The notes: generated by a model from the letters alone, not told the origin. A stretch of 25,658 nt of DNA from a virus (IMGVR_UViG_3300009120_000006:1-25658); one strand, 5' to 3'. Shown: positions 5,689-19,348, counted from the stretch's first letter. Numbers and translations are program-made.

Positions 5689-6712
5689 AAATAGGCTCTT
5701 TATATACTTCTCCCAGATCGCGAAAAACATTATTGCGTTTGATTTTTTCTTTTTCGACCATATCTGGAGCATACCCCTGTTGAGTGAAATATTCCGTAAG
5801 CATATCATCATAAAACCGCCATATGTCCTTATAAGCGATCCTGGGCTTATCTTCTAATCTTCTGGCGTAATTTATAATACACCATATAATTAAATCGGCA
5901 TCATCATACGGCTGTTCTTTTAGCTTTGGTAAAATCGGAATTATTCCAACCTCGGTCTCTACCGCCTCAAATAACTGAGGGAGTAAATCTACACCTCCAC
6001 TTATGTCTGACTTCGACAACTGCGAAACATTAATCTTTGCTGCCGTTGCTGCATCTTTAGCCATAGTTGCCCAATCTTTTGCTTCTTTAACCAGGCCGTT
6101 TGCTGTAGCCAATTCTTCTTTAACCCTAAATCTTATATAAGTTATTAAGCCCTCAATATGGAATGATGTTTTTTCTCCATAATTGTTTATCAGCTTATTC
6201 CACTTTTTCTCGAAATAATAATATTCTTGGTCAGTATACCCCACTCCCCACTTATCAATTATCTTGTCTGTTACTACAAACGTGTCTATACTATCCAACG
6301 ATGATTGCGGTGTCTCTGAACGGGTAGTTTCTATGTCGCCTTCATCAAATTGTGTATCAAAAACAGAATCGGCCCAACCCATACTTCTATACTGCTTCAT
6401 TGCTATATTTTTCATATATGTACCAAACGCATCTCGATTGCTCATAGATGTAGAAGTATTCCATATGTCTAGAATGAATGGTCTATCCAATAGTTGTAGC
6501 GTTTTCTTCAGCTTTACTAAATCAACGTTGCCACGTTCGTCCGTTATCATCTTTTTCAGACATGGTTTACAATACGGAAGACATCCCGTTTGATGAACTG
6601 GATTAAAACTCTTATAAAACTGAGATGAATCACGTTCCTTACCACATGCAGCACACGACACCCCTGGAAGGGGAATCTTTGGTTTGTTACTGTTTGAGCT
6701 AATCCGATGCAA
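5672..6712 (-). CDS. Zinc-finger protein before TerL, terminase small subunit candidate
   Basis: The 346-aa product starts with TTG at 6712, inside the last codons of the homing endonuclease gene (14-base overlap), and its best Shine-Dalgarno (GGAGG, 12 bases upstream) is also inside that gene. Residues 20-51 hold four cysteines spaced C-x2-C-x24-C-x2-C. The middle (100-180) is acidic and aromatic, residues 185-230 form an Ala/Lys-rich helix, and the end is helical and charged. Position directly before and overlapping terL argues for the DNA-recognition subunit of the terminase. It is longer than classical small subunits (about 150-200 aa), and I see no clear HTH, so the role is contextual. 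Confidence 0.6.
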   Translation of the reverse strand: MHRISSNSNKPKIPLPGVSCAACGKERDSSQFYKSFNPVHQTGCLPYCKPCLKKMITDERGNVDLVKLKKTLQLLDRPFILDIWNTSTSMSNRDAFGTYMKNIAMKQYRSMGWADSVFDTQFDEGDIETTRSETPQSSLDSIDTFVVTDKIIDKWGVGYTDQEYYYFEKKWNKLINNYGEKTSFHIEGLITYIRFRVKEELATANGLVKEAKDWATMAKDAATAAKINVSQLSKSDISGGVDLLPQLFEAVETEVGIIPILPKLKEQPYDDADLIIWCIINYARRLEDKPRIAYKDIWRFYDDMLTEYFTQQGYAPDMVEKEKIKRNNVFRDLGEVYKEPIYENDH

Positions 6713-7613
6713 TCAACTCTTCTCCCTCCACAAATCTCCATTTAAAACCACCCGCAGTATTTTGAATTCCACAACATACGGAATGAATATTCCATATACC
6801 AGTCTCTTTGCGCGCCTTCTGTGAACTTTCCCACCGCCGTATGACATTGCCATTAAGGTCACACTGATATACTGGCCTTTTATTTAGTTTCACCGTATTA
6901 TGAACAAATGTTCCACTATAGTAATCGGATTTACGCACCCACACATACCCTTTATAACTTTGAATATGTCCATTAAGACATCTATTTATATTACATGCCT
7001 TATAACCAATTTGTCTTTGCACTTCATGTGCACTCAACCATTCCGAGACAAATGAGCCATTGGGGGCAAGTTGAACTATCTCTATATTGTTAATCCTTTT
7101 TAATTTATCTTTTGTTTCTTCGGATGTTTTTCTACCCAAAGCATTTCCAGCAGTGGGATTTAAATTATAACCCTTAGTCTTATCGCAAACGCCAAGGTTA
7201 TTTATCCAATGCTGTTCTCTTTTAACTAGCATCTTTTTATCAGGAATAAATTCTAGAACTATAAACTTAAAAGCATCTTCGCCATGTTTATTGTAAGCAT
7301 TTTGTAAATATACGTTTTCGTGATTGTTATTTCGTAGCATACTCATATGTGCACACCATCTAGTAAAAATGTCTTTTGCACTACCCACATAAGATTTATT
7401 AGATTTGCAGTTTCTGATTTCATATACGCCGTGCTTTTTATAAATATCTTCCCAAAAATAATCAAAAGTTTGTTTCTTAGAAAAGAATTCCGTACCACAA
7501 TCACATTTCTTACATGCACTTCTGAACCCATTTTTCCTCGATTTATCCATAAAGAAATAATCAGATGTAAGCGGATATTCGTTGCCACATTTGCTACACT
7601 TCTTTGAATTCAT
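6699..7613 (-). CDS. GIY-YIG homing endonuclease with NUMOD repeats
   Basis: The 304-aa product has four parts. Residues 6-37 form a zinc finger C-x2-C-x24-C-x2-C. Residues 60-145 are a GIY-YIG nuclease with GVYEI (62-66), SYVGSAKD (74-81), the catalytic Arg of FTRWCAH (R85) and the catalytic Glu of KREQHWI (E133). Residues 152-175 carry a NUMOD3-type helix (GRKTSEETKDKLKR). Two NUMOD1-like DNA-binding repeats follow (177-228 and 246-295), each with the pattern G-x-hydrophobic ... W-x-S ... I-x-x-C ... G-x-x-W. This is the I-TevI/I-BmoI type of free-standing selfish endonuclease. It is inserted between a structural gene and the terminase genes, and the terminase reading now starts inside its 3' end. 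Confidence 0.93.
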   Translation of the reverse strand: MNSKKCSKCGNEYPLTSDYFFMDKSRKNGFRSACKKCDCGTEFFSKKQTFDYFWEDIYKKHGVYEIRNCKSNKSYVGSAKDIFTRWCAHMSMLRNNNHENVYLQNAYNKHGEDAFKFIVLEFIPDKKMLVKREQHWINNLGVCDKTKGYNLNPTAGNALGRKTSEETKDKLKRINNIEIVQLAPNGSFVSEWLSAHEVQRQIGYKACNINRCLNGHIQSYKGYVWVRKSDYYSGTFVHNTVKLNKRPVYQCDLNGNVIRRWESSQKARKETGIWNIHSVCCGIQNTAGGFKWRFVEGEELIASD

Positions 7614-11149: not shown

Positions 11150-12169
11150 TTATTCTGTACTATCATCAAAGTCAAGCAGTCCTAACGCTGCTCGTTGTCG
11201 CTTAGAAAGACTGGAGAACGTAATATGTTTTCTACTACCATCATTCATTTCTCGCATTTTGTATCTTGATAGTATTCCTGTATCTACATTTTCTTCAGTA
11301 GGTTTACACAAATAATAACCTAATACATCCAAACAAACGCGAACCCTGTCATCATCCCATCCTGCCTCAATATGTCTTTTGTACTTTTCTAATATCTCAT
11401 CAACGACCATTTTGCGCTTAACCACATCCTTAGTATTAGGCAAAATAGTCTTTGTTCCATCTGGAAGTATTAATTTCATACCCTCTGGTTCCTTTGCTGC
11501 CCTCGTTGGCTTTTTCTTCTTTTCTTTGACCTTTTTTGGTTTGGGTGTAAAATCGTTTAGCCCCTCAATTATACGGCTGGGGAACTCATTTTCTGCCATT
11601 TTTGTTCCCAAAGAGCAGTAATTATCTCGGCGGTTACGCCTTTTGCACACTACACAGTCATTTCGCAGCCCGTCTTCGTTTCCATCATGCTTGTGAAAAA
11701 ACATCTCTGTCGCCGGATACTGTTCACCGCATACGCGGCAAGTCTTCCATTCGCTCTCAATGTAGTTCATATGTACCCAACGGAGCCATTCCATATTGTT
11801 TTGCTCAATGATTTTCCTACAAATCTTGTCCACTGAGCGATCTATCCTTCTTGTCTCCACCATCAACAATTCTGCAATATCCTCAACCATTAATCCTGAA
11901 CCTAACAACTTGACCAATGCGGACTGATTGTCTATTAGCTTAGCCTTCTCAATCAATATGTCAAGGTCGGAGAATAGCACTACAATCTCCTGATTAACAT
12001 TCTTAAAATTCGAAACCCCAAGTTTTCCACCAGAATCTTGCATAAAATCATTATAAATATCTAACTGTGCCTTTAGTGTAATTAGCCCCTTAACCACATC
12101 CACATCACTCAGTCGAGTAAAATGAAATTCTCTTTCTCTTTTGTATATGTCCACCTTCACACGGCCCAC
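11150..12169 (-). CDS. DNA-binding protein with HTH and C-x2-C-x24-C-x2-C zinc finger
   Basis: The 339-aa product starts with GTG nine bases after AGGAGG. Residues 85-120 read like a sigma-region-4 or Trp-repressor-type HTH (LVKLLGSGLMVEDIAELLMV, then a recognition helix with RRIDRSVDKI). Cysteines at 144, 147, 172 and 175 form the same finger as in the terminase-side protein and the homing endonuclease. Residues 208-230 are a Lys/Pro-rich linker (KPKKVKEKKKK), and the end is acidic. It is the second gene of a leftward operon from the promoter at 12.4 kb. A phage transcription regulator is my best guess; a packaging or endonuclease-derived protein is possible. Confidence 0.65.
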   Translation of the reverse strand: MGRVKVDIYKREREFHFTRLSDVDVVKGLITLKAQLDIYNDFMQDSGGKLGVSNFKNVNQEIVVLFSDLDILIEKAKLIDNQSALVKLLGSGLMVEDIAELLMVETRRIDRSVDKICRKIIEQNNMEWLRWVHMNYIESEWKTCRVCGEQYPATEMFFHKHDGNEDGLRNDCVVCKRRNRRDNYCSLGTKMAENEFPSRIIEGLNDFTPKPKKVKEKKKKPTRAAKEPEGMKLILPDGTKTILPNTKDVVKRKMVVDEILEKYKRHIEAGWDDDRVRVCLDVLGYYLCKPTEENVDTGILSRYKMREMNDGSRKHITFSSLSKRQRAALGLLDFDDSTE

Positions 12170-13556: not shown

Positions 13557-16028
13557 TTAAGTTGCTTGCCTACTACGAGATTTGTCCTGTATTTCCTTCT
13601 CTACGACACTCAAATGCTTACCATACATTCTCGCATGTCTCTTTGTAAGAAACTCATTGTTACGAGTGGTATACCTATCTGTCAGCAACGCCGGTGCATT
13701 CATAATGAAAGCCTCTTCATACTTGCCATCTGCGTTCATCCATATTGCAACGTATTGGTATTTTTTCGTCTGCTCCATGGCCAATTCTGGCGTAAATGTT
13801 GGCATAAGATACTCTTTAACCTGCTTATATGTGTTGATGTTAGTGTTCTTAAAGATATGCCAACTAAGTGATGATGACATAAGTGTGTCCACAAACCCTG
13901 AATATCCTTTAAATACTTCAAAACCATGGAACACAAAGATTGATGCCAACTTCCACTTGCGACCCTCTCTTAATATTCGCTCAAAACAGTCTACTGAAGC
14001 TTTACTTAAAAACTGATGAGGCTCGTTAATAACCAGCCATGTCATTGCGCCGCGTCCACCCAATGACAGCTTTGTCAGATACACATTCAGCGTTATCCAA
14101 TAACATAGTGTTTGTATGGTGGAATCAGCCATCTCCCTCTTAGGTATGCGATATATAATCACCTTGCCTTCTTCTAACCACTGCCTAGTTTTCAATGCAG
14201 GATTAGGTGTCTGACAGAATATAGGACGTAATATCTCATCTTCTGTTAATTCCGCAAGTCTGACAAATATCGGGCCGGATATGTTTCTCGCACTGCCCAT
14301 ACCGTCATAGTTTTCAAGCATTTCTGTGTCTCTGCCTTTTTCTTTCTCTTGCGCTATGATCGCCTTTCTGTATACAGAGTCTGTTAAGAGTCGCTTTATT
14401 AGCACGATGTCTGCACCTACTGCCCTAGACATAGCACGAAGGTAGTTGCGTGTCTGGAAGTTTTCAAAATCATCTCCCATAAGGAATTGAACTAACTCAT
14501 TGGTAATTCTACTTACAGTACGGGGATTTGAATTGTCGAGTGCTTCTGATAGTCCAATGTAAACAGGATAATCAAATTCAGCTAAGTCTATATCAATGAT
14601 ATCTTCTGGTGGTAAATGGTCACGTACTGCATCTGCTATGCCACGATGTTCATTGCGTTCATCTACAACGTCTATAATCACTGCACCTATGCCATGGTTC
14701 AGCTTAGATTCAACAATAAAATTTGCTACAGCCTGATCCTTACCCATACCCATAGAACCAATAAATGCACGAGTAGCCATAAGTCTATCTGGATTGTCTT
14801 TGGGTAAGTAAACATCAAACTTCTGACCACGTTTTTGTGCAGTTCCCATGTAAATGCCTTTATCGTCAAGGAAGGATTTAGGAATATCCACTTCAACGCT
14901 TCTATTGGCACTTATAGCCTCTTTGAATTCTTCCTGCACATGAGAAGTAGGTAATTGTACAATCTTGCCTATTTCATCCACGGACAATATAGGACTTAAC
15001 TGACGTGGATTCGGCACAACAAAAGAATTTACTTTTTCCCCGTAACGCAGATTAACCCTTATTAACTCTAGTTTATTGTCTCCTGCCAAATCAGTGAAAG
15101 CACTTGATATAGAATACGCAAGCATATCTCTTCGCGCAGGATTATCTGCACTTACTGCAAGATTAATAGATGTAGAGAACGCAGGTAGATTACGCTTCCG
15201 TTTTGTATGTGTGGAAAGAGAGCCATTAACAAGTATTTCTGCACGTTCAGTATCAACAATTTCTATTCTTTTCTTATCAGGATTGCTATTACTTCCATGG
15301 AATATTGAATTTTCAACTGCCGCTATTGTAGATTCAACGATATTGAATATTTCACAACATACAAAGAAGAATGCATTTTTAACTCCCTTTAGCAACTGCT
15401 GCAGGTCAAAGCCACTTTTTGTGGGAACCCCGCCTCTATCCCACACTCCCCATGCATAGTCAGTGACCTGTTTCCAATGTTTGCGAGACAGTGCTTCCAT
15501 CCCTACAAACAAACCAACAAAATCATTTGCCTTCATTTCCTGTGACACATGGACTATTTCACGTATAGGAGATAGCTGTTCAGTATAATCATGTTCAAGG
15601 CTAAACATATTTGATCTTGTTGTGCGAAGTTGATACATACTCAGATTGTCCTTTGAAAATTCTACAGACGAAAGTGGCACTTCCTCAACAGTACACCTTT
15701 TCCACTGCTCATGGGATTTAACTTTGATAAGAAAGACCTCTGCAAAAGATTCTGACATGCAAATATAGAATTCTACCTGCTTTTCTATTTTATCTTCTAC
15801 ACCTGGTTTGGCGCGGATAGTTACTATCCACCATATATCATCCTTGAGTCTATAAGTAAAATGCAGCCCATTACGAGTAAGTCTGGAAACGGGGGAGTCA
15901 TACATTGTCATTATTTCATGTATGGTGTACCACAACTTGCGATTCATTGAATTCAAAACTGTAGCATGTGGGGTTATCTTAAATAGTACCTTCTTGTTGC
16001 TTATAGTCTCAAACTTAAAATTAAACAC
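13557..16028 (-). CDS. HerA/TraG-like conjugation-type ATPase
   Basis: The 823-aa product starts with GTG after AGGGGTGAG. Residues 1-340 form a non-ATPase region with a hydrophobic stretch AFFFVCCEIFNIVES (219-233). SPILSVDEIGKIVQLP (345-360) is the short motif that precedes the P-loop in conjugal HerA/TraG ATPases. Walker A is GSMGMGKD (424-431), with Asp in place of the usual Ser/Thr, and Walker B is TWLVINEPH (663-671); a further conserved-looking FQTRNYLRAM (524-533) lies in the insert domain. Such enzymes pump DNA or protein through membranes in conjugation systems. It follows two pilin-like membrane proteins, and no relaxase is visible in the window. An alternative is a phage-specific membrane motor. 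Confidence 0.75.
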   Translation of the reverse strand: MFNFKFETISNKKVLFKITPHATVLNSMNRKLWYTIHEIMTMYDSPVSRLTRNGLHFTYRLKDDIWWIVTIRAKPGVEDKIEKQVEFYICMSESFAEVFLIKVKSHEQWKRCTVEEVPLSSVEFSKDNLSMYQLRTTRSNMFSLEHDYTEQLSPIREIVHVSQEMKANDFVGLFVGMEALSRKHWKQVTDYAWGVWDRGGVPTKSGFDLQQLLKGVKNAFFFVCCEIFNIVESTIAAVENSIFHGSNSNPDKKRIEIVDTERAEILVNGSLSTHTKRKRNLPAFSTSINLAVSADNPARRDMLAYSISSAFTDLAGDNKLELIRVNLRYGEKVNSFVVPNPRQLSPILSVDEIGKIVQLPTSHVQEEFKEAISANRSVEVDIPKSFLDDKGIYMGTAQKRGQKFDVYLPKDNPDRLMATRAFIGSMGMGKDQAVANFIVESKLNHGIGAVIIDVVDERNEHRGIADAVRDHLPPEDIIDIDLAEFDYPVYIGLSEALDNSNPRTVSRITNELVQFLMGDDFENFQTRNYLRAMSRAVGADIVLIKRLLTDSVYRKAIIAQEKEKGRDTEMLENYDGMGSARNISGPIFVRLAELTEDEILRPIFCQTPNPALKTRQWLEEGKVIIYRIPKREMADSTIQTLCYWITLNVYLTKLSLGGRGAMTWLVINEPHQFLSKASVDCFERILREGRKWKLASIFVFHGFEVFKGYSGFVDTLMSSSLSWHIFKNTNINTYKQVKEYLMPTFTPELAMEQTKKYQYVAIWMNADGKYEEAFIMNAPALLTDRYTTRNNEFLTKRHARMYGKHLSVVEKEIQDKSRSRQAT

Positions 16029-16038
16029 AGACTCACCC

Positions 16039-16395
16039 CTAACCTATCATAAGAATTGCAAAACCTACAACTCCAACCATGACTATTCTCCCGTACCATT
16101 TATTATTGTCACCAGTAACCATTAGTGCGAGAGCGCAACCCACGATTGCTAGAGTTATTATCTCTGGTAAGCTTGGGCGTATGTAGTTATATAATGCTAC
16201 TACACCTCTCTCAATCCATCTGAGAATTGCATCAATAACAGCACTATTGCCCGACGATGGATTTCCAAAGAATCTTTCAGGAGGGTTTTCTGGCAATTGT
16301 CTCAGCCAGTGTTCTACTGCTGGCGGAGAGCTACCAAAGAATCTGTCTGTAGATGATGGATTTCGAGTGAACCATTGTTTAATCCATTCCATCAT
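16039..16395 (-). CDS. Membrane protein with VirB2/TrbC-like helical hairpin
   Basis: The 118-aa product begins at a TAATG junction with the gene before it, so the two are translationally coupled. Residues 10-50 hold two copies of an NPxx..RFFGxxP motif (RNPSSTDRFFG and ENPPERFFG). Residues 78-94 and 103-117 are membrane helices joined by VTGDNNKWYGR. The same helix - TGDxxK - helix plan recurs in the 82-aa neighbour and resembles small VirB2/TrbC pilin-like proteins of type IV secretion. The last residue is one base frame away from the ATPase operon continuation (11 bases to its start). Function as pilin, channel or anchor for the ATPase is inferred. Confidence 0.65.
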   Translation of the reverse strand: MMEWIKQWFTRNPSSTDRFFGSSPPAVEHWLRQLPENPPERFFGNPSSGNSAVIDAILRWIERGVVALYNYIRPSLPEIITLAIVGCALALMVTGDNNKWYGRIVMVGVVGFAILMIG

Positions 16396-16643
16396 TATTT
16401 CATCATCCTTTTAATGATTTCTATAATTATCGGAAGTGTCAGTAGGGACTTTAAAAAGTCTCGAATAAACAATGCTTTGCGAATGATAAGATATCCCGAT
16501 GCAACGCCTATTCCTCTTTCTAATGCCTTTGTCTTGTCTCCAGTCATCCAAACGAATCCGGCATATGCCAAAAACGCCCAACACAGAAAATCGCTAAGCT
16601 CCAAAACGGCCTTCATAATTGAAGAAAAACTTGTAACGTCCAC
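16395..16643 (-). CDS. Small membrane protein, paralogue of the 118-aa neighbour
   Basis: The 82-aa product starts with GTG after AGAAGGGAG. Residues 17-35 (LSDFLCWAFLAYAGFVW) and 42-60 are membrane helices around MTGDKTKALERG (33-44), the same loop as in the gene downstream; the end is a basic amphipathic helix. VirB2/TrbC-type pilins share this size, two-helix form and Gly-rich second helix. Its stop overlaps the next start by one base. I see no cleavable signal peptide. Together with the ATPase it suggests a minimal secretion or DNA-transfer complex. Confidence 0.65.
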   Translation of the reverse strand: MDVTSFSSIMKAVLELSDFLCWAFLAYAGFVWMTGDKTKALERGIGVASGYLIIRKALFIRDFLKSLLTLPIIIEIIKRMMK

Positions 16644-16678
16644 GCTAATGCTCCCTTCTTGTTGTTTTAAATATTATA

Positions 16679-16780
16679 CTAACCATGGTTTCGCATCCAC
16701 AGCCTATAAGCTCCACGAAACATAAGATAAATGCCACCAAAGACACAGAGCAGAGACAGAAAGGTATATACATAAAACAT
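16679..16780 (-). CDS. 33-aa single-pass membrane peptide
   Basis: ATG at 16780 lies eight bases after AAAGGAG, followed by 33 codons to TAG. The product begins MFYVYTFLSLLCVFGGIYLM and ends with basic residues (FRGAYRLWMRNHG), a typical one-helix membrane peptide with its positive end inside. It is the first gene of the cluster that goes on with the two pilin-like proteins and the ATPase. Its leader AAAGGAGTGTGAACAATG is of the same type as several leaders in the rightward module at 23-25 kb. No family is recognised. Confidence 0.6.
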   Translation of the reverse strand: MFYVYTFLSLLCVFGGIYLMFRGAYRLWMRNHG

Positions 16781-16947: not shown

Positions 16948-17253
16948 TCAATCTTCACTCCTTTCTTCCTTATTTCCAACCGCAAGTATTGCATCTAACT
17001 CATTAGCAATACTCATTTCTTGTTCAGCCACCTGGGGAATTGCCGAGAATGCAATCTTGCTGACATATCCCTCGATTAATCTTTTCACTTGTGATTCCGT
17101 CACAAGTGTCTCTTTTTTTATTACTACAGTTTCTAGTAGGTCACGTAGCCATGCGCTTTTGTTAGGTAGGGAGTCAATGTATTGACAGATTTCCGGTGTA
17201 AGGTGAAAGCTTCTAATTGACCGCTTCACTACTACAACTGTGTTGTCGTCCAC
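16948..17253 (-). CDS. ParR-like ribbon-helix-helix partition adaptor
   Basis: The 101-aa product starts with GTG after a TAGGTG site within the last codons of the actin-like gene (22-base overlap). Residues 8-40 read as a ribbon-helix-helix: a strand (KRSIRSFHL), TPEICQYIDSL and SAWLRDLLETVV. The rest is helical and ends acidic (NKEERSED). A small RHH protein directly after and overlapping a ParM-type gene is the standard ParM-ParR order; it would bind the centromere and connect it to the filament. No canonical parC iterons are obvious beside it, but candidate repeats occur upstream of the actin gene. Confidence 0.8.
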   Translation of the reverse strand: MDDNTVVVVKRSIRSFHLTPEICQYIDSLPNKSAWLRDLLETVVIKKETLVTESQVKRLIEGYVSKIAFSAIPQVAEQEMSIANELDAILAVGNKEERSED

Positions 17254-18113
17254 TTGGCAACACCTACCCTGTAATTACCTATTGCTGTGGCGAGTTGAGG
17301 ATTAGATACAAGAGGGAAGTCTAAATGATCCTGCAACATTAATGCACCACCACCTGCTAGATGCACTTCATCCCAATTAGTTTTCCACCACTTGTTGATT
17401 TCTGAGCGAATGCGGATAGATAGATTGTGTCTCGCTTCATCGTCAGGAGTCGCATCATCCGGCATTATATCTGACCGAGATGCTACACGACGATACGTTT
17501 CAAGTTGTGCAGATGTGGTGCCAAATGGGAGAGTGCCTGATTCTGCTGCAATATATTTCATTCTACGGAATGTGCAGAAGTTAACTGTTTTGCTACCAAT
17601 GTCAATGATACGTAGTAATTCAGGTTTTGAATGGACACGACCATTATCATCAAGGACTAGAGCATAACCTACGCTTGCACCTTCTGGCATCATTAGAACA
17701 TCAACAACGTGGAGTTTCTTGTGCTTACCACAAAACTCAATGTTCCATACGCTGCGGAGTATGTCACGAAGGGACAGTGTTGTATCTGAGTAGTCAGATA
17801 TAGGAGTGCTGCCAACAACAGATACTAGGGATTCATTTTCGACCATTAAGGATATGCCGGTAAGGATAAGTGGAAGGTTAGAATCTCGCATGAGTTTATT
17901 CTTTTCAATTTCCCGTGTACCATATTCAAGTTTAGCCAACTCACCAGTCCACCACATTTCATTGCTTATCTTGATATGGTATTCTTCTTTAACATTATCT
18001 AACTCACGTATGCGCTCACGACATGCATAAGAGGGAACAACAAAGGATTTGCCGTGGGAATAGAACTTTGAATCTTGATTTCCCACATCAGCACCGATGA
18101 TAGAACCTAACAT
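17232..18113 (-). CDS. parM: ParM/Alp-type actin-like segregation ATPase
   Basis: ATG at 18113 follows AAGGAGG by six bases and gives 293 aa; the in-frame extension upstream has no ribosome site. Phosphate-1 motif IGADVGNQDSKF (6-17), phosphate-2 motif IIDIGSKTVNF (169-179) and the adenosine motif VHLAGGGALML (250-260) are those of the ParM/StbA/Alp branch of actins. Filaments of such proteins push plasmid copies apart. It is a little shorter than R1 ParM (320 aa). With its RHH partner it implies that this phage genome is kept as a low-copy plasmid. Confidence 0.9.
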   Translation of the reverse strand: MLGSIIGADVGNQDSKFYSHGKSFVVPSYACRERIRELDNVKEEYHIKISNEMWWTGELAKLEYGTREIEKNKLMRDSNLPLILTGISLMVENESLVSVVGSTPISDYSDTTLSLRDILRSVWNIEFCGKHKKLHVVDVLMMPEGASVGYALVLDDNGRVHSKPELLRIIDIGSKTVNFCTFRRMKYIAAESGTLPFGTTSAQLETYRRVASRSDIMPDDATPDDEARHNLSIRIRSEINKWWKTNWDEVHLAGGGALMLQDHLDFPLVSNPQLATAIGNYRVGVAKWTTTQL

Positions 18114-18240
18114 GCGATACCTCCTTATTAAAGTTATGATTTGTATTAACATGGTATTGTCGATTTGTGTCTATTAGAACTGTAGGAGTAGGGAAGGGTA
18201 AAATATTTTTGAGGTAGTGGGGTAAGAAGGTAAAAAATAA
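18114..18240. other. Purine-rich gap upstream of the actin gene
   Basis: No gene is visible. The plus strand is rich in G and A (GGAGTAGGGAAGGGTAAAA, then GGTAGTGGGGTAAGAAGGTA), giving loosely repeated GGGTAA blocks that could be a centromere for the ParR-like protein. This gap must also hold the leftward promoter of the actin gene; I see only a weak candidate (TCGACA around 18160). Confidence 0.4.
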
Positions 18241-18494: not shown

Positions 18495-18583
18495 GGAACG
18501 CATTGTGACATGTGAGTGGGAAGGGGAGTACTTTCTTCTTTTTCTTTCTTATTTTTTACTTGAACAAGAGAGGATGTATTAAA

Positions 18584-19348
18584 TTGAATTTTATTAAACT
18601 TGGGAATGAAGTGGCTACGCTTGAATACCTAACTCCTAATGACTTGTATGTATACTCTTACCTCTACATGTGGCAGAGATTTGGGCATGGAAAGTTAAAT
18701 ACAAGTATTGGTATCTTACATAGAGAGATTAAACTTCTGAAAAAGGAAGCAGACAACAGGAAAAGGATAAGGGAGTCTCTTGAAGCTCTGTGTGGGGTAG
18801 GACTGATATCTTGTACTGGAGATGATGTGTGTGTAAAGATTAAACTTGAAAAGGAATGGAGTGATTGTTTCACACTCATACCTAGTATGTTGTATGAAAA
18901 AGTATCTACTCCTGAAGAATGGGCAGTGATATGTTACATACTAAGGTGGGGAGCCTTTAGGTCTAAGATCAGCTATCATGAATTTAGTGTGGCATTGAAA
19001 TGTAGTTATAAGACGGCATTCAGAGTGATTCAACAGATGGAAGAAAAGGGGCTGATATCTGTTGAGCATGGGAAGTATATGAATTTGAACTCAGTGATTA
19101 GACAAGAGATTAATCAGTATAGAGTCGATGGTGGAGTGTGTGGTGAATCAGCAGCACACGAGATGGTAAGAATGAAGGGATTTGCACTTATGGCTGGAGA
19201 CCAGAGGATAGTAGATGATATTAGTAAAGCGACCAGGATTTATTATGAAAGAGATTATACTATAGTGAGTGTAGAGATGGGGAAATATAGTGTGGAGAAA
19301 AAGAAGCAGATGTTGGATAACATTAAGAAAGAATGTAGATTAAAATAA
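18584..19348 (+). CDS. Winged-helix replication-initiation-type protein
   Basis: I place the start at TTG (18584), seven bases after AGAGAGGATG; the open frame extends 24 codons upstream through a poly-Phe stretch encoded by a T-rich leader, which is unlikely to be translated. The 254-aa product has two winged-helix units: about residues 12-88 (LTPNDLYVYSYLYMWQRFG ... IRESLEALCGVGLIS) and about 110-165 (KTAFRVIQQMEEKGLISV). This architecture is found in plasmid Rep and phage DnaD-like initiators. Repeats in the leader and a parS/palindrome region nearby fit a replicon. A transcription regulator remains possible. Confidence 0.65.
   Translation: MNFIKLGNEVATLEYLTPNDLYVYSYLYMWQRFGHGKLNTSIGILHREIKLLKKEADNRKRIRESLEALCGVGLISCTGDDVCVKIKLEKEWSDCFTLIPSMLYEKVSTPEEWAVICYILRWGAFRSKISYHEFSVALKCSYKTAFRVIQQMEEKGLISVEHGKYMNLNSVIRQEINQYRVDGGVCGESAAHEMVRMKGFALMAGDQRIVDDISKATRIYYERDYTIVSVEMGKYSVEKKKQMLDNIKKECRLK

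Follow-up and report, generated by a model that had tools for sequence, protein, structure and literature searches.

The closest described counterpart of the locus considered here is found in phage SPP1, whose gp32 is an early, non-essential protein that resembles TrwB, VirB4 and FtsK by HHPred (PMC6316719). The 2018 re-annotation of SPP1 proposed that gp32, together with gp31.1 and/or gp31.2, may form a "trans-membrane translocon" (PMC6316719), and the central translocon idea is already published for SPP1 in the form of that suggestion. Two B. pumilus phages, Novomoskovsk and Bolokhovo, have TrbC/VirB2, Replic_Relax, FtsK and RHH genes, and a lost plasmid-prophage state has been suggested for them (PMC9658697). 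Our literature search on phage-encoded T4SS found no functional study, and no earlier report was found of the two-domain VirB4 assignment, the M23 fusion, the comparison with phage G, the breadth of distribution, or the paired Walker swap (see below).

The locus analyzed here occupies the minus strand, positions 13557-16780, of a 25,658-base virus fragment (the whole stretch is called the window). A preliminary reading made from the sequence alone had described a conjugation-type motor and a VirB2-like small membrane protein inside a tailed phage, and this description holds. The window encodes a terminase (phrog_2, 4.3e-13), a portal protein (phrog_2739, 2.8e-54) and ParM, all of which the same reading had listed; its replication gene (18512-19348) is weakly matched (phrog_8102 at 0.0025). 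Next to its terminase genes the window also encodes a homing endonuclease (6699-7613, minus strand), which PHROG assigns to the GIY-YIG type (phrog_314, 1.3e-25); a 339-aa protein (11150-12169, minus strand) combines matches to a phage sigma-factor family and to endonuclease VII/HNH families in one chain. From 18152 down the minus strand, the genes are as follows:

17232..18152, minus strand: ParM-type actin-like partition protein (PF17989, 8e-13; phrog_691, 2.6e-36)
16948..17253, minus strand: 101-aa protein, RHH/ParR-like by eye, adjoining the ParM gene, with no Pfam or PHROG match
16679..16780, minus strand: single-TM protein of 33 aa, preceded by SD AAAGGAG, with similar ORFs in relatives
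16395..16643, minus strand: VirB2/TrbC-like pilin family protein, 82 aa (HMM of relatives; phrog_5422, 1.9e-7)
16039..16395, minus strand: second hairpin membrane protein, 118 aa (HMM of relatives; position between pilin and ATPase)
13557..16028, minus strand: VirB4-class ATPase, 823 aa (phrog_5156, E 7e-168; predicted fold)

The last four genes form one tight operon; each is preceded by a plausible SD, and the stop of the 82-aa gene and the start of the 118-aa gene have one base in common. An operon of an ATPase and three small membrane proteins had been proposed from the sequence, and this layout stands; the ATPase, described there as HerA/TraG-like, is VirB4-class and not simply HerA/TraG. 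The third small protein is likely the 33-aa ORF (MFYVYTFLSLLCVFGGIYLMFRGAYRLWMRNHG) directly upstream of the pilin gene: its SD is the better one, and single-TM ORFs of 32-36 aa, also with an SD, lie immediately 5' of the pilin in four relatives (L009, L010, L041 and L042). An overlapping 52-aa ORF with a poorer SD was rejected. This ORF sets the end of the locus at 16780. The 101-aa gene is probably a partition gene, to judge from its place beside ParM, and is at most a candidate part of the machine.

The ATPase has no match in Pfam, the curated VirB4 profiles CagE_TrbE_VirB and P-loop_TraG included, and membership in the HerA family was rejected on the absence of the HerA central domain PF01935. 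Two domains can be delineated, a VirB4-like N-terminal domain (residues about 1-380) and a motor domain (about 381-800) with Walker A GMGKD at 427-431 and Walker B INEPHQ, the N of which is residue 668. An AlphaFold2 model, built from an alignment of 29 sequences, has a mean pLDDT of 82, and its best Foldseek matches are to full-length TrwK/VirB4. In VIA comparisons, the model matches the VirB4 C-terminal domain (4ag5) with Z of 27.7, followed by DndH (26.1), TrwB (25.5) and HerA (25.1); against full-length TrwK (7o43) the Z is 19.6 over 563 residues, with rmsd of 10.9, which we take to reflect domains set at differing angles in the model. Because the motor domain alone cannot separate VirB4, DndH, TrwB and HerA, the N-terminal 392 residues were folded separately. 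All 14 Foldseek matches of this domain with E < 0.001 are TrwK/VirB4, and VIA aligns it with TrwK over about 250 residues at Z 14-16 and rmsd 3.7-4.0, the next protein scoring 8.0. As far as the predicted structure is a guide, the ATPase is VirB4-class by fold across its whole length. Sequence identity to VirB4/TrwK is about 10-13%, so that the link is one of deep homology or shared fold, outside the curated Pfam families. Residues 206-258 of the N-terminal domain form a low-confidence, partly hydrophobic insertion, for which membrane contact is possible.

The ATP site of this motor is altered. In the clade that includes the window, Walker A reads GKD in place of GK[S/T] and Walker B reads NE in place of DE, which corresponds to a coupled change, S/T to D at residue 431 with D to N at residue 668. 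D is paired with N in 39/39 clade sequences and S/T with D/E in 30/30 others (69 sequences, no exceptions), counts that are not independent evidence, because the motor tree places the whole change on one branch, as a single event with support of 100/99. The Mg-binding charge would thereby have been shifted from one motif to the other, and such a shift suggests that the ATP site works.

The 82-aa protein is made of two hydrophobic helices with the charged loop TGDKTK between them, and the helix - TGDxxK - helix arrangement pointed out in the sequence-only reading is indeed common to the 82-aa and 118-aa proteins. Pfam and PHROG yielded little for the small proteins of the window taken singly, and family-level profiles were required. 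With HMMs built from relatives, the window excluded, the 82-aa protein is recovered at E 7.9e-18 and the 118-aa protein, as a moderate match, at E 5.7e-4 (among about 6,000 ORFs), and so these matches are not due to chance. In the pilin family, 15 of 19 members match TrbC/VirB2 at E <= 1, the best at 6.5e-6; the family also has a weak match (E 0.038) to TraM, the pilin of pKM101. Ten members scored singly all fall under the Pfam TrbC cut-off of 27.9 bits; phage G gp150 is the exception among members scored singly, in that it passes the cut-off of T4SS_pilin. The window's own 82-aa protein gave no TrbC match when searched alone against Pfam. In most relatives the N-terminus is signal-like and closes with AxA-type motifs, whereas the window's protein and the copy in Alicyclobacillus phage MMB025 have no signal peptide (all by eye). 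By profile comparison, the 82-aa protein appears to belong to a TrbC/VirB2-related, pilin-like family, whose matches lie below Pfam cut-offs.

The second hairpin family, which sits between the pilin and motor genes, is a different one. The sequence-only reading had likened both hairpins to VirB2/TrbC-type pilins and taken them for paralogues; the likeness is supported for the 82-aa family, with its TrbC matches, and paralogy is not supported, the profile-profile probability of 0.8% giving no relation between the families. An M23 endopeptidase domain is present at the N-terminus in 7/18 members of the second hairpin family (best E 4e-26), gp20 of BboS-125 is a further M23-bearing example, and the window's copy is without it. 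Judging from the charged loops, both ends of the hairpin proteins may face outward, in which case the M23 domain would lie at the cell wall. As for the holin or coat identity of the small proteins, no such family match was found and the profiles indicate pilins; nor was the ATPase placed in an unrelated family, the other outcome that the sequence-only reading had named as contrary to its proposal.

A single-protein scan of viral contigs gave no relatives of the motor; scans with sub-clade alignments as queries did. In all, relatives of the motor occur in two plasmids and in 60 phage records, almost all of these from Bacillus, Geobacillus, Lysinibacillus, Alicyclobacillus or Brevibacillus. The nearest is that of MMB025 (37%), a temperate phage (PMC13141910), with which the window groups in the motor tree (100/100) before the two join the SPP1/GBK2 group (98/96); in MMB025, a gene with a GmrSD_N domain adjoins the motor. 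In the SPP1, GBK2, Goe26, LysYB1, D6E, SPO1, TP-84, Slash and other clades, a gene matched by the pilin profile lies upstream of the motor, and the pilin-ATPase pair recurs in nearly all related phages. The profile finds no match in the Laceyella plasmid, in the divergent chromosomal loci L062, L065 and L066, or in Microcystis phage MaeS, although a hairpin gene of similar look stands at the pilin position in MaeS. The MaeS motor and the one in B. megaterium phage Stills share 65% identity, and MaeS (L091) also has a SleB-annotated gene; its Microcystis host label may be wrong. The second hairpin family was undetected by profile search in the D6E and SPO1 groups.

All three genes (pilin, second hairpin and motor) have dN/dS of 0.01-0.16 in one Bacillus-type viral contig group, which indicates that they are retained, at least in that group. 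Since the module is found in the lytic phages SPP1 and SPO1, it is not confined to phages with a plasmid-like lifestyle. A Replic_Relax gene adjoins the motor in the SPO1 group and in the Laceyella plasmid. In SPO1 (L004 3953-9463), genes 27.9-27.3 encode ParM, small proteins, the motor and Replic_Relax as a single cassette; most neighbouring genes lie on the other strand, and the arrangement resembles an inserted plasmid cassette. In several phages, pilin and motor alike have a motif like ETIKFxDFM close to the N-terminus (L002, 5113-5454 and 5833-8403; L003; L009; L001, 4611-4919), which could be a common docking signal.

Several conjugation parts were looked for and not found. Relaxase PF03432 was found neither in the window fragment nor in 13 relatives, PF02486 in none of 13 relatives, and PF13814 only in SPO1, L046 and the Laceyella plasmid (16 of 19 records were without it). 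TrbL_4/VirB6 (PF19597) is present in phage G alone among 15 records, relatives being the ones searched, and TcpC/VirB8 (PF12642) in 0/13 relatives. The sequence-only reading, which saw no relaxase, VirB6 or VirB8, is thus borne out for these five profiles, run mostly on relatives, and for the window this refers to the 25,658-base fragment, not to the whole phage.

That the module is a T4SS-derived translocase or pilin-assembly machine is very probable. Our best explanation, to which we give an even chance, is that of a reduced, relaxase-less envelope translocase derived from a monoderm T4SS, most likely exporting phage DNA or nucleoprotein. Of its parts, DNA as the substrate is about an even call, and the outward direction of transport is held more tentatively still. 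In the proposed mechanism, the VirB4-class ATPase would act at the membrane, where the 82-aa VirB2-like protein would insert as a hairpin and the motor would build it into a short tube or channel. Pilin and motor would have the 118-aa and 33-aa proteins as partners in a putative complex, and the M23 hydrolase carried on the second hairpin in many relatives would open the cell wall; phage DNA or nucleoprotein might then, at a guess, be moved out of an infected or lysogenic cell. We count in favour of a translocase the VirB4 fold, the link of the pilin to TrbC, the conserved gene pair, the M23 fusions, the phage G core, the dN/dS values and the SPP1 proposal. Counted against it are the relaxase, VirB6 and VirB8 negatives, the dispensability of gp32 in laboratory lytic growth of SPP1, the lack of M23 and the moderate family match of the window's second hairpin, and the lack of a signal peptide and of a TrbC match of its own in the window's pilin. 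A bolder version, in which the module is assembled early in infection as a miniature T4SS that sends the genome or nucleoprotein from cell to cell, bypassing virion and receptor, in phages of spore-formers, lytic ones included, we consider unlikely.

Pilus biogenesis in T4SS centres on a VirB2-VirB4 pair, and the highest-ranked rival builds on this: VirB4 would extract and assemble the pilin into a surface filament or other membrane assembly with no DNA transport, altering the cell surface for superinfection exclusion or adhesion. Relaxase was not found in the window's nearest relatives by the three profiles tested, and the SPP1 version is early and its gp32 dispensable, as expected of exclusion functions (PMC6316719); but the M23 fusions and the ParM and Replic_Relax neighbours in SPO1 fit transport better, and the literature search found no surface structure reported, so we regard this rival as improbable. 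Less probable again is a DNA pump that, with ParM, would carry the phage genome through the septum at division or sporulation, in the manner of SpoIIIE. ParM-type genes are often upstream of the module, the nearest relative, MMB025, is reported to be integrated in sigK (PMC13141910), and almost all ATPase-bearing phage records come from spore-forming hosts, by raw counts of the host labels. Such host restriction may, however, be plain phylogeny; GBK2 has no annotated ParM in the stretch examined, and the nearest fold is that of VirB4, not FtsK.

In the archaeal Ced systems, a VirB2-like pilin is paired with a HerA/VirB4 ATPase, and a complex of this kind would bring DNA into the cell. We think import quite unlikely here: the proteins are made only after entry of phage DNA, gp32 of SPP1 is dispensable (PMC6316719), and a TrbL/VirB6 counterpart (PF19597) was not found in most members. 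Last in rank, and very improbable, is that the module is left over from a lost plasmid-prophage state, the kind of history suggested for Novomoskovsk and Bolokhovo (PMC9658697). In line with such an origin, some phages have ParM, RHH and Replic_Relax genes beside the module; this rival is disfavoured by purifying selection (dN/dS 0.01-0.16, with genes intact in many lineages), and the Walker-site pair, changed together without exceptions, also speaks against it.

If the module is a translocase that moves DNA or protein, phages studied for 50 years would have a second exit route besides virions; since SPP1 and SPO1 carry related genes, the function is directly testable in model phages. It would also be a VirB2-VirB4 machine close to the minimum, in a Gram-positive background, with a bearing on the smallest working T4SS. 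Even a negative answer would inform the question of what holds a conjugation-type motor under strong purifying selection in unrelated phages.

Among the known systems, SPP1 (gp31.1-gp31.2-gp32) and GBK2 (gp30-gp31-gp32) have the same gene order as the window, i.e., a pilin-like hairpin, a second hairpin and a motor of about 830 aa. The SPP1 motor has 836 aa from an internal ATG, and the downstream ORF 589 aa, likewise from an internal ATG, lengths as in PMC6316719; the window and GBK2 motors are about 31% identical. The SPP1 pilin has a signal peptide and the window's does not, and ParM upstream of the module is a feature of the window in which it differs from the SPP1/GBK2 module. Compared with conjugative pilins of the VirB2/TrbC type, the hairpin with its charged loop is alike, and most phage relatives have a signal-like N-terminus as well; compared with VirB4/TrwK, both domains of the ATPase fold alike, and Walker A GKD with Walker B NE sets the window's clade apart. 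In Bacillus phage G (gp150-gp156; L093 441-6806), gp156 is the homologue of the window's ATPase and lies near the pilin gp150. In addition, gp153 is a TrbL/VirB6 protein, gp154 looks PrgI/VirB3-like by eye, and gp155 is a VirB4 separate from gp156. The Pfam scores exceed the cut-offs for T4SS_pilin (27.4 vs 26.6 bits), TrbL_4 (44.4 vs 27) and P-loop_TraG (57.1 vs 25.8), and this T4SS core is fuller than in any other phage of the comparison. Judged by its gene content, phage G is the link from the reduced module to a fuller T4SS.
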